A DNA stretch of 36,917 bases from NCBI GenBank assembly GCA_017464245.1, contig JAFUDV010000059.1, positions 1 to 36,917 on the forward strand. The letters are read 5' to 3'. Positions within the stretch are counted from its first letter, which is position 1. The number at the start of each line of letters is the position of its first letter. The notes beneath the pieces were generated by a model, which was not told where the DNA came from, ran no database searches, and worked only from the letters and a program-made list of their open reading frames with translations. Below are positions 18,344 to 22,318 of this stretch, piece after piece. Source of the DNA: Bacteroidales bacterium. Lineage in GTDB: Bacteria; Bacteroidota; Bacteroidia; Bacteroidales; UBA932. The translations under genes were made by a program, and so were the position numbers.

Positions 18344-18913
18344 CTAGTTCGCGGCCGGAGCGGCGGCCTGGGCCTGGGCAGCCAGTTCCTGCTGGAGCTG
18401 CTCGAGGGTACGGCCATCCTTGATGCCGAGGGCCTTGCGGGCGGCCGGGGTGAGGTCCACGACGGCGCTCTCGTCAAAGTACAGGGCGGAAGAGGAATCG
18501 AAGACGGCGGCGAGGCCCTGGGCCTTCGCGAGGTCCTGGACGGCCTTCTGGGCCTTCTCCATGATCGGGTTCATCAGCTGGGCCTGCTGCTGCTGGAGTT
18601 CCTGGGAGATGGTCTGCTGGAACTCCTGGATGCGGTTCTGGATGTCCACCAGTTCCTTTTCCTTGGCCTCCTTGATGGCGGCGGTCCAGGAAGCGGACTT
18701 CTGCTGGTACTGGCCGGCCTTGGACTGGTACTCCTCGACCATGGAGTTGAACGTCTCCTGGGCTTCGTTGGACATCGCATTGATCTGCTCACGGGCAGCG
18801 TCGGCCTCCGGCATGAGCTGGTAGAGCTCGGTGAAATTGATACGGCCCAGCTTCTGGGCGGAAGCGGAGAGGGTCAGAAGCGCCATGGCGGCGATTGCAA
18901 GAATCTTTTTCAT
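18344..18913 (-). CDS. Periplasmic chaperone, Skp/OmpH family
   Basis: 189 aa. It has a Sec signal peptide (about 1-19, ending ASAQ), then LGRINFTELYQLMPE, the usual OmpH start. A long Gln/Glu/Lys-rich coiled-coil arm at about 35-120 fits the tentacles of the trimeric jellyfish-shaped chaperone that holds unfolded outer-membrane proteins. The Gln/Ala-rich tail is unusual but low in complexity. The gene lies 63 bp downstream of bamA on the same strand, the classical bamA-skp arrangement. A second Skp-like protein, a lipoprotein, is encoded at 23996. Confidence 0.9.
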   Translation of the reverse strand: MKKILAIAAMALLTLSASAQKLGRINFTELYQLMPEADAAREQINAMSNEAQETFNSMVEEYQSKAGQYQQKSASWTAAIKEAKEKELVDIQNRIQEFQQTISQELQQQQAQLMNPIMEKAQKAVQDLAKAQGLAAVFDSSSALYFDESAVVDLTPAARKALGIKDGRTLEQLQQELAAQAQAAAPAAN

Positions 18914-18976: not shown

Positions 18977-19258
18977 TTAGAACTGCTGTCCGATGACGAA
19001 GTGGAACTGGCTGCCGCCGTTCTTGGAGTCATCGAAGCCGTAGCCCCAGTCGACGCCCAGTAGGCCGATCATCGGGAGGAACACGCGGACGCCCACGCCG
19101 GCGCTGCGCTTGATCTGGAACGGATTGAACTCGCGGATGTCCGCCCAGCAGTTACCGCCCTCCAGGAAGCCGAGGACATAGATGGTGGACTGCGGCTGGA
19201 GGATCACCGGGTAGCGGAGCTCGACCGTGAACTTGTCATAGATGTTGCCGGCGTACGT
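18977..19258 (-). pseudogene. bamA: 3' remainder of bamA, after the in-frame TGA
   Basis: Directly in frame with the 19259-21598 segment and separated from it only by one TGA codon (19259-19261). The 93 codons encode the last barrel strands: TYAGNIYDKFTVELRYP, FLEGGNCW, FNPFQIKRSAGVGVR, FLPMIGLLGVDWGYGFD and the terminal FHFVIGQQF ending in Phe, a BAM recognition signature. Sequence conservation here looks intact, so the stop is recent, read through, or a sequence error. No plausible independent start exists for this piece. Confidence 0.85.
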
Positions 19259-21598
19259 TCAGGTGGAACTGTACGGAGTGACCCGCATCGGGGTGAGGGA
19301 ATAGTCCTCATAACCGCGGAGGGAGATGATTTCCGCACCGTAGGTCATGTATCCCGACATGCCGTCGCCACCCACCTGGAAGCCCTCGAACGGGGAATAA
19401 CCCCAGTTCCGGTTGTAATAGCCCAGGAAGCCGAACTGAGCGCGGCTCATGAGGACGAGGTCGCCGACGAGCTTGGTGTACACGGCGCCGCTGAACTTCC
19501 ACTTGTGGTATTCGATCCACTTGTACCGGTTCGCCGAGCTCCATTCGTTCTGGATGTTGCCCAGGTTGTCCGTATAGGTGGCGTCGTAGTTCACGTCCTT
19601 CCAGCTGTTCACCTTCACCTTCTCGCCGTTCTTGTACGTGTACTTGCGGAAGAGGGAGTAAGGAGGCGTGAGCTGCAGGGAGGCGGAGAAGTCGGATCCC
19701 ACACGCGGATAGATCTGCTGGTCCGTGGAGTTGCGGCTCAGGGACAGGGTATAGCTCAGGTTGTGGGAGATACCGTCGTTGAAGGCGAAATAGCTGTTGT
19801 ACCAGTTGGTGAGCTTGTAAGTCTGCCAGCTCAGGCTGTTGTACAGGACGAAATAGTTGTCCGGCCACTTGAGGCGGTTGCCGAGTCCGGCATTGAAGCC
19901 GAAGACCTCGAACATGCGGTCCGTGGAGAGGATGCCGATGTACAGGTAGGAGTCCGTCATCCTGGAATAGTAGCCGGAGAGGCTCAGGGAAGTAGGTTTC
20001 TTGCCGAAGAGCCAGGGTTCCATGAAACTCGCGCTGAGGGTCGTGTAGTAACGGCCGTTCGTCTGGAAGCGGAACGACAGCGTCTGCGCGTCGCCGAGCG
20101 GGACCGGGCGCCAGGAGTTCTTGTCCAGCATCCGGTGCGTGGAGAAGTTGTTGAAGCTCACGCCCGCGGTGGCGACGAAGGTATTGCCGCCCCAGCCGCC
20201 GGAGAGTTCCAGCGTGGAGGAAGGCTTCTCCGTCACGTTGTACACCAGGTCCACGGTGTTGTTCAGCTGGTTGGGGATGACGGAATAGCCGCCCGCACCC
20301 ATGATGGCCTCCGCATCGAACTGGCCCAGGGAGGCGATTTCGCGGATGGACCGCTCGAAGTCGGACTGGCTGAACAGGTAGCCCGGACGGGTCATGATCT
20401 GGCGGCGGACCACCTTCTCGTTCGTGAGGTCGTTGCCGTTGATGACGATGTTGTTCAGGGTGGCGGGCTTGCCTTCGGAGATGCGCATCTCCACATCGAC
20501 GGAGTCGTTCTGGATATTCACCTCCACGGGAGTGACGTTGAAGAACAGGTAGCCGTTGTCCATGTAGAGTTTCCGGACGTCGTAGTCCGTCTGCTTGCCG
20601 CCGCCGTGGAGCCGCTTGTCCATCGTGACCACGTCGTAGATGTCGCCCTTCTTGATCTGGAGGACTTCGTCCAGGACCTCGGAGGGATACACGGAGTTGC
20701 CGGTCCAGGTCACGTTGCGGAAGTAGTACTTGGGGCCTTCATCAAAGACCATGTCGATCGCGAGGTGCTTCGGGTCCACGTAATAGACGGAATCGCGCAC
20801 CAGGCGCGCGTCCCGGTAACCGGCCTCGTTGAACGCATCCAGGACGGTCTTGCGGTCCGTCTGATACTCCTTCTCCTTGAACTTCTTGGACTTGAAGAAG
20901 TTGTACCACTTGTTCGAGTGCGTCTCCTTCATGGCCTTGGACAGTTTGTAGTCCGAAACGTCCGTGTTGCCGATGAAGTTGATGTCCTTGATGCGGACCT
21001 TGTTTCCCTTCTTGACGTCGAAGTTCACCCGGATGGCGCTGCGGATCATCGTGTCCTTCTGGACCTGGGTGTCCACCTCGCACAGAAGGTAGCCCTTCTC
21101 CTTGTAGTATCGCTTGATGATGTCCTCGGAAGTGCTCTTCACATATTCGGAGAACTCGCGGCCGGGACGGAGGTTCAGGCGCTCCTGGAGGTCCTTCCGT
21201 TCCCCGGACTTGACGCCGGAGTAGGTCCAGCGGGACACCCTCGGGCGCTCCTTGACCACGACCTTGAGCCAGGCGGTGTCGCGGGCGGCGTTCAGGGAAT
21301 CCACCACGATCGCCACATCCTCGAAATAGCGCTGGGCGACCAGGCGGCGGATGACACCGGTCACGTCCTCGCCCGGTACGGTGACGGACATGCCCTTCTG
21401 GAAGCCCGTGAGCTGCAGGATCTGGTTTTCACCGAAGTACTGGTTGCCCTGGACGCGCACGCCGCCGATGACATATTTCTGGGGATTCGTATAGTCTATC
21501 TCGACCGCGCTCCGGCCGCCCTGCGCCCACAGGAGGGGTCCTGCGAAGGCAAGCAGCAGCAGACAGACGGTCTTTCGTATCTTCATATAATCAGCCAT
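19259..21598 (-). CDS. bamA: BamA/Omp85 outer-membrane assembly factor, ends at a premature TGA
   Basis: Core of the BAM complex that folds outer-membrane beta barrels. The signal peptide is followed by five POTRA-type repeats (about 40-450) and the start of the 16-strand barrel (about 460 on). The reading frame stops at codon 780 with TGA, right after SLRGYEDYSLTPMRVTPYSST, yet the barrel continues in the same frame to 18977, giving the normal total of about 872 aa. Without the tail the barrel cannot close, and BamA is essential. ATG 21598 lies 7 nt past a TATCTTTG box; ATG 21586 (MKIRKTVCLLLL) gives a cleaner signal peptide and is a real alternative. It sits between uppS (21 bp upstream) and skp. 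Confidence 0.9.
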   Translation of the reverse strand: MADYMKIRKTVCLLLLAFAGPLLWAQGGRSAVEIDYTNPQKYVIGGVRVQGNQYFGENQILQLTGFQKGMSVTVPGEDVTGVIRRLVAQRYFEDVAIVVDSLNAARDTAWLKVVVKERPRVSRWTYSGVKSGERKDLQERLNLRPGREFSEYVKSTSEDIIKRYYKEKGYLLCEVDTQVQKDTMIRSAIRVNFDVKKGNKVRIKDINFIGNTDVSDYKLSKAMKETHSNKWYNFFKSKKFKEKEYQTDRKTVLDAFNEAGYRDARLVRDSVYYVDPKHLAIDMVFDEGPKYYFRNVTWTGNSVYPSEVLDEVLQIKKGDIYDVVTMDKRLHGGGKQTDYDVRKLYMDNGYLFFNVTPVEVNIQNDSVDVEMRISEGKPATLNNIVINGNDLTNEKVVRRQIMTRPGYLFSQSDFERSIREIASLGQFDAEAIMGAGGYSVIPNQLNNTVDLVYNVTEKPSSTLELSGGWGGNTFVATAGVSFNNFSTHRMLDKNSWRPVPLGDAQTLSFRFQTNGRYYTTLSASFMEPWLFGKKPTSLSLSGYYSRMTDSYLYIGILSTDRMFEVFGFNAGLGNRLKWPDNYFVLYNSLSWQTYKLTNWYNSYFAFNDGISHNLSYTLSLSRNSTDQQIYPRVGSDFSASLQLTPPYSLFRKYTYKNGEKVKVNSWKDVNYDATYTDNLGNIQNEWSSANRYKWIEYHKWKFSGAVYTKLVGDLVLMSRAQFGFLGYYNRNWGYSPFEGFQVGGDGMSGYMTYGAEIISLRGYEDYSLTPMRVTPYSST

Positions 21599-21619: not shown

Positions 21620-22318
21620 TTATTTGACTTTTCCATATCTGCGGTCCCGGGAGGCGTACTCCGCGAGGGCCGCGCGGAACTCGGGTTTCCGGAAATCGGG
21701 CCAGAGGACGTCCGTGAAGACGAACTCCGTGTAGGCGCATTGCCAGAGGAGGTAGTTGGAGATGCGCTCCTCCCCGGAGGTACGGATCAGCAGGTCCGGA
21801 TCCGGGATGCCGGCCGTCACGAGATAGCGGTCGAAATCGGCCGTCTCCATCGACCGGACACCCTCGGCGCCCCTTTCCGCGACGGCCCGCTTCATGGCCT
21901 GGAGGATGTCCCACTTCCCGCTGTAGCTCAGGAAGATGACGAGGGTCATCCGGGAACAGGCGGCGGTCTTCCCCATCAGGTCGTCGATCGCTCCGTTCAG
22001 GCGCTCCGACAGACGCGCACGGTTTCCCAGCACGACGAAACGGACCCCGTTGTCCAGCAGGGTCTTCATTTCGTTCCGGATGGCTTCCATCATCAGTTCC
22101 ATCAAGCGGTTGACCTCCGCCTCGGGGCGGTTCCAGTTCTCTTCCGAGAAGGCATAGAGCGAAAGGTACTTCACCCCCGCCTCGACGGCGGCTTCGGTGC
22201 AGGCGCGGACGCTTTCCACCCCCGCGGCATGCCCATATACGCGCTCCTTGCCGCGGGCCTTCGCCCAGCGGCCGTTTCCGTCCATGATGATGGACCCGTG
22301 CACGGGAACTTCGTTCAT
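21620..22318 (-). CDS. uppS: Isoprenyl (undecaprenyl) diphosphate synthase
   Basis: Cis-prenyltransferase that builds undecaprenyl diphosphate, the lipid carrier for peptidoglycan and surface glycans. 232 aa. Conserved region I is IIMDGNGRWAK with catalytic Asp13. LYAFSEENWNRP is region III, and DLLIRTSGEERISNYLLWQCAYTE is region V, which carries the diphosphate-binding Arg and Ser residues. It is encoded between nadK (8 bp upstream) and bamA, an order common in Bacteroidales. It uses the isoprenoids made through dxr at 5016. Confidence 0.97.
   Translation of the reverse strand: MNEVPVHGSIIMDGNGRWAKARGKERVYGHAAGVESVRACTEAAVEAGVKYLSLYAFSEENWNRPEAEVNRLMELMMEAIRNEMKTLLDNGVRFVVLGNRARLSERLNGAIDDLMGKTAACSRMTLVIFLSYSGKWDILQAMKRAVAERGAEGVRSMETADFDRYLVTAGIPDPDLLIRTSGEERISNYLLWQCAYTEFVFTDVLWPDFRKPEFRAALAEYASRDRRYGKVK

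Follow-up and report, generated by a model that had tools for sequence, protein, structure and literature searches.

Can a living cell carry a stop codon inside bamA? The question is raised by contig 43 of the draft genome of an uncultured gut Bacteroidales bacterium (G000; 2,367,692 bases in 97 contigs, 84.7% complete), a stretch of 36,917 nucleotides that was analysed whole and is called the window here. Within it the bamA frame meets an in-frame TGA. In Flavobacterium johnsoniae, where a depletion strain was used, BamA has been treated as essential (PMC12611786), and it has been placed in the essential core of Bacteroidota (PMC12578637). An earlier note on this DNA had offered four options for the stop: a base-calling or assembly error, a mixed population, a second bamA elsewhere, or read-through of the UGA.

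The frame lies on the minus strand and runs from an ATG at 21598 through 779 codons to the TGA, and then through 93 further codons in the same frame to a closing TAA. It is broken at no other point between 21598 and 18977. The POTRA family PF07244 matched the part before the stop (2.2e-42), and positions 226-325 of the 325 in PF01103, the end of the Omp85 barrel, matched the part after the stop alone (1.3e-10). The two parts covered positions 2-587 and 646-741, respectively, of the 741-position BamA model TIGR03303, with scores of 286.6 and 28.3, each of which is by itself under the curated cut-off of 297.15. The gene therefore has the BamA order of POTRA repeats followed by an Omp85 barrel, split by a TGA that interrupts what should be an unbroken frame to the C-terminal strand. 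The 93 codons past the TGA encode a conserved barrel end with a terminal Phe and 74-98% amino acid identity to relatives, a likeness that exceeds chance. The description in the earlier note, with one frame of 779 and 93 codons on the two sides of the TGA, an A as the next base and a BamA-like sequence to the final Phe, was thus borne out.

The TGA comes 17 codons downstream of the RGY in 'SLRGYE', a motif that was invariant in 30 relatives and that we take for loop 6 of BamA. At the TGA site itself both residue and length vary between relatives, and gaps occur there in both of the detailed alignments with solved BamA chains of Bacteroidota (9hj3_A and 9hiv_A). A protein terminating at the TGA should fail to close the barrel. 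Separate translation of the C-terminal piece was considered and rejected, since the earliest in-frame start option past the TGA is a GTG at codon 18 of the tail and a signal peptide would presumably be absent. At the other end of the gene, translation may in fact begin at M5 and not at M1, because M5 corresponds to a nearly invariant Met in the alignment of relatives. The coordinates of these features and of the other interrupted genes described below are given in the Table.

Table. Positions of the interrupted bamA gene of the window, of other interrupted genes, and of bamA frames that meet a contig end.
Feature	Position or genome	Strand	Remarks
bamA, part before the stop	19262..21598	-	signal region, POTRA repeats, most of barrel; 779 codons
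In-frame TGA of bamA	19259..19261	-	next base A; variable stretch, 17 codons past invariant RGY motif
bamA, part after the stop	18980..19258	-	last 93 codons, end of Omp85 barrel, terminal Phe
TAA closing the bamA frame	18977..18979	-	
GH94 phosphorylase-like gene	7029-7031 of L155, G000 contig 88		in-frame TGA 94 codons before end; Pfam profile split 383/385
HerA-like (PF05872) gene	3253-3255 of L231, G000 contig 80	-	in-frame TAG; profile split 238/240, continuous on both sides
bamA of G271	L239		TAA, 167 codons before end
bamA of G126	L242		TGA, N-terminal part
bamA of G087	L234		frameshift
bamA at contig end	G125, G145, G144, G021, G204, G397, G206, G255		
bamA at contig end	G092, G001, G015, G142, G084, G168, G301, G376		by coordinates only

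In the window bamA is flanked by uppS (21620-22318) and a Skp-like gene (18344-18913). The closest named relatives of the window are uncultured Bacteroidales MAGs, many of them from ruminant guts, judged by their titles. Of those genes of the window that allowed comparison (approximately 11.6-34.9 kb), bamA was the only broken one, so that contig 43 is not bad in general, a point that counts against an error. Three other window matches each had a single stop, located in the first 26 residues of a query frame taken from stop to stop, and we take these stops to precede the start codon.

The stop was shared by none of the relatives examined. Alignment of close relatives at this codon, a check that had been proposed along with the four options, found a stop at the site in none of 29 same-genus loci (in two of which, L020 and L022, the upstream frame meets a contig end) and in none of 80 named MAG loci, a set that overlaps the first. 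Eight close relatives, with 86-89% DNA identity over bamA, are open for 787-790 codons ahead of the site. The tail shows no sign of decay: its dN/dS was 0.03-0.05 in comparisons with four relatives, 0.08 with another and 0.13 with a sixth that is more distant, as opposed to 0.12-0.17 for the part before the stop and 0.00-0.09 for the tail between pairs of intact relatives. We also counted private changes, that is, codons at which three close relatives agree and G000 differs, and found 9 synonymous and 0 nonsynonymous changes after the stop, and 85 synonymous and 33 nonsynonymous changes before it. Had the tail been unconstrained along the whole branch, approximately 31 nonsynonymous changes would be expected. 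If rates are taken as equal, the break can thus span, as a rough estimate, no more than about 10% of the branch. These substitution patterns show a tail that was under purifying selection until very recently, and together they imply that the stop is very recent, or an error, or functionally harmless.

How often bamA looks broken in comparable genomes was determined by searching for its 93-residue end in 400 genomes of the same genus, G000 included. The end was found in 381 of the 400, the 19 without a match being outside the frame count. In three sets (78, 80 and 73), 231 of the 381 genomes were searched again, and all frames of fewer than 845 codons were inspected. The bamA frame meets a contig end in 16 genomes, leaving 365 that can be judged. 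Four of these carry a broken bamA, those of G000 (TGA), G271 (TAA), G126 (TGA) and G087 (frameshift), and all four breaks are at separate places in the gene. As G000 had been chosen for being broken, it was left out of the rate, which is then 3/364, or 0.8% (interval 0.2-2.4%). Since the three other bamA genes that look broken differ in the place and the kind of break, one such case is evidence neither of recoding nor of bamA being dispensable.

A similar picture was obtained within G000. We scanned 648,195 bases (window included) and a further 301,653 bases, 0.95 Mb or 40% of the genome in all, for stops flanked by coding-like sequence before and after, using a coding model seeded with named genes and downstream-score thresholds of 0.15 and 0.10. 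A first coding model had been dropped when it picked up antisense frames. Matches with a plausible start of a next gene close behind were excluded on visual inspection, without testing for homology. Besides bamA, two genes were clearly cut among 412 coding-like frames, a GH94 phosphorylase-like gene by a TGA and a HerA-like gene by a TAG. The resulting rate without bamA is 2 of about 411 frames, or 0.5% (0.1-1.8%), for a scan that needs at least 30 open codons on each side of a stop (40 in one run), does not register frameshifts or stops close to the end of a gene, and may count an interrupted gene as two frames. At the GH94 site a stop was found in none of 19 loci outside G000 (61 genomes; five of the loci are distant, with 31-42% identity). 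A further candidate in-frame TAG, at 3124 of L162 (minus strand, contig 73), had no Pfam match on either side and was not counted.

These base rates provide the deciding control. The breaks are of mixed types and at scattered sites, as fits random consensus faults or dead alleles, and we conclude that the TGA in bamA is very probably one sporadic nonsense base in the assembled consensus of an ordinary bamA. Under selection, true breaks of bamA should be far rarer than those of an average gene, and yet the rate for bamA across the genus (0.8%) is close to that for the average gene in G000 (0.5%), although the counts behind both are small (3/364 and two other genes) and the intervals wide. An error that is blind to function would be the simplest cause, and a consensus or assembly fault of the draft metagenome genome, argued from base rates rather than from reads, is the origin that we favor as probable. 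Living cells would then have a sense codon at the site and produce BamA in full length, with no special mechanism. Counting against an error, the breaks in G126 and in the GH94 gene are also TGA, so that three of the five nonsense cases (bamA of G000, G126 and G271, GH94 and HerA-like) are TGA, with one TAA and one TAG, in addition to the one frameshift. This mix of break types speaks against a UGA-specific cause, although the cases are too few to test a preference. The main alternative to a consensus fault, that a real, non-functional allele is carried by part of the sampled population, is possible but rather unlikely. Of the four options in the earlier note, error and mixed population are hence the ones that fit best, given the three other broken bamA genes and the two further cut genes in G000; a second bamA was not found in the assembled genome, and read-through received no positive support. 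The observation itself is confirmed, and the biology is probably ordinary.

Read-through would require that an ordinary near-cognate tRNA, such as tRNA-Trp, decodes the UGA and that a little full-length BamA suffices for growth. Several features are in keeping with this: the UGA is followed by A, the site is variable in relatives and should therefore accept most residues, the sequence beyond it is conserved, and TGA accounts for three of the five nonsense cases. Decoding of UGA by an altered tRNA-Trp(CCA) has also been reported in bacteria (PMC13092985). Against it, no anticodon TCA, which the earlier note had suggested looking for, was present among 33 tRNA genes of G000 (32 matches, all typed by ARAGORN, and a tRNA-Pro(cgg) in the window), a set drawn from a genome about 85% complete that does not include tRNA-Trp, nor in 54 larger stretches of G000. 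The run on the 54 stretches added to the 32 matches a single 89-base entry that resembles tRNA-Thr(ggt). Neither the tRNA-Trp of G000 nor its secE was found in the assembly. In three same-genus genomes tRNA-Trp lies beside secE and has the anticodon CCA, and in two of them (L211 1335-1408 and L212 1760-1833) the anticodon stem, judged by eye, has five pairs with a G-U at the top. RF2 is present in G000, looks intact and carries the SPF and GGQ motifs. The RNA after the TGA folds no better than shuffled sequences (z 0.65), and roughly the same region of an intact relative gave a z of -0.66; no stable structure was thus found past the stop. Programmed read-through would be expected to keep its stop in relatives, and every relative examined lacks it; breaks of bamA also extend beyond UGA. 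Taken together, these data make read-through very improbable, and a TGA that is real and fixed, with leaky UGA decoding sustaining the cell and the accuracy of translation setting the level of an essential outer-membrane machine, is slightly more improbable still. Were it so, bamA would be a naturally occurring example of read-through maintaining an essential gene.

Among the tRNA genes, one on contig 24 (L036) is a tRNA-Pro with the anticodon AGG. This anticodon is uncommon in bacteria.

A second complete bamA in the unassembled part of the genome, with the present copy decaying, has a very slim chance. The room for it lies in the roughly 15% of G000 that is missing, but the bamA protein of a relative gave one match only in the assembled genome, and the C-terminal search gave a single match in 380 of the 381 genomes, with two in G344 (by eye). 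The bamA of G397 was accompanied by an extra weak match to the bamA end, at 37% identity. The tail of the present copy, as described above, is also without decay. Omp85-like proteins on contigs 37 and 45 of G000 were considered as a second bamA and rejected, as they were unmatched in the bamA protein search and look like other members of the superfamily, that of contig 37 being apparently TamL-like. The weakest explanation, reassignment of UGA to an amino acid in this lineage, draws on the in-frame TGA of the GH94 gene and can be practically dismissed, since UGA still ends genes and an RF2 that looks intact is present, TGA ending 71 of 275 coding-like frames in a first sample and 35 of 137 in a second (106/412, in line with the earlier view that a general code change is unlikely), the residue types at the bamA and GH94 sites differ among relatives, and the HerA-like gene is cut by TAG.

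The bamA of G000 was also compared with known systems. An intact relative of the gene (L072) matched the solved Bacteroidota BamA chains 9hj3_A, 9hiv_A and 9n2d_A, with a best E value of 6e-206, and its alignments with 9hj3_A and 9hiv_A comprise two stretches that cover nearly the whole protein up to the final Phe. Unlike those proteins, the gene assembled in G000 is cut short by 93 codons, at a point where relatives vary and ahead of the conserved barrel end. With the tRNA-Trp variant systems of PMC13092985 it shares an in-frame UGA in a conserved gene, but differs in that no variant tRNA was seen in G000 (whose tRNA-Trp did not turn up in the assembly), UGA terminates genes there in the normal way, and stops of other types interrupt genes too. 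It also resembles the sporadic stops and frameshifts of draft metagenome genomes, such as those in the bamA genes of G126, G271 and G087, which are isolated, occupy a site of their own in each genome and leave the downstream frame conserved. No feature that would distinguish the bamA of G000 from these was found, and the case indicates how much trust a lone stop codon deserves when an essential gene of a metagenome-derived draft carries it.
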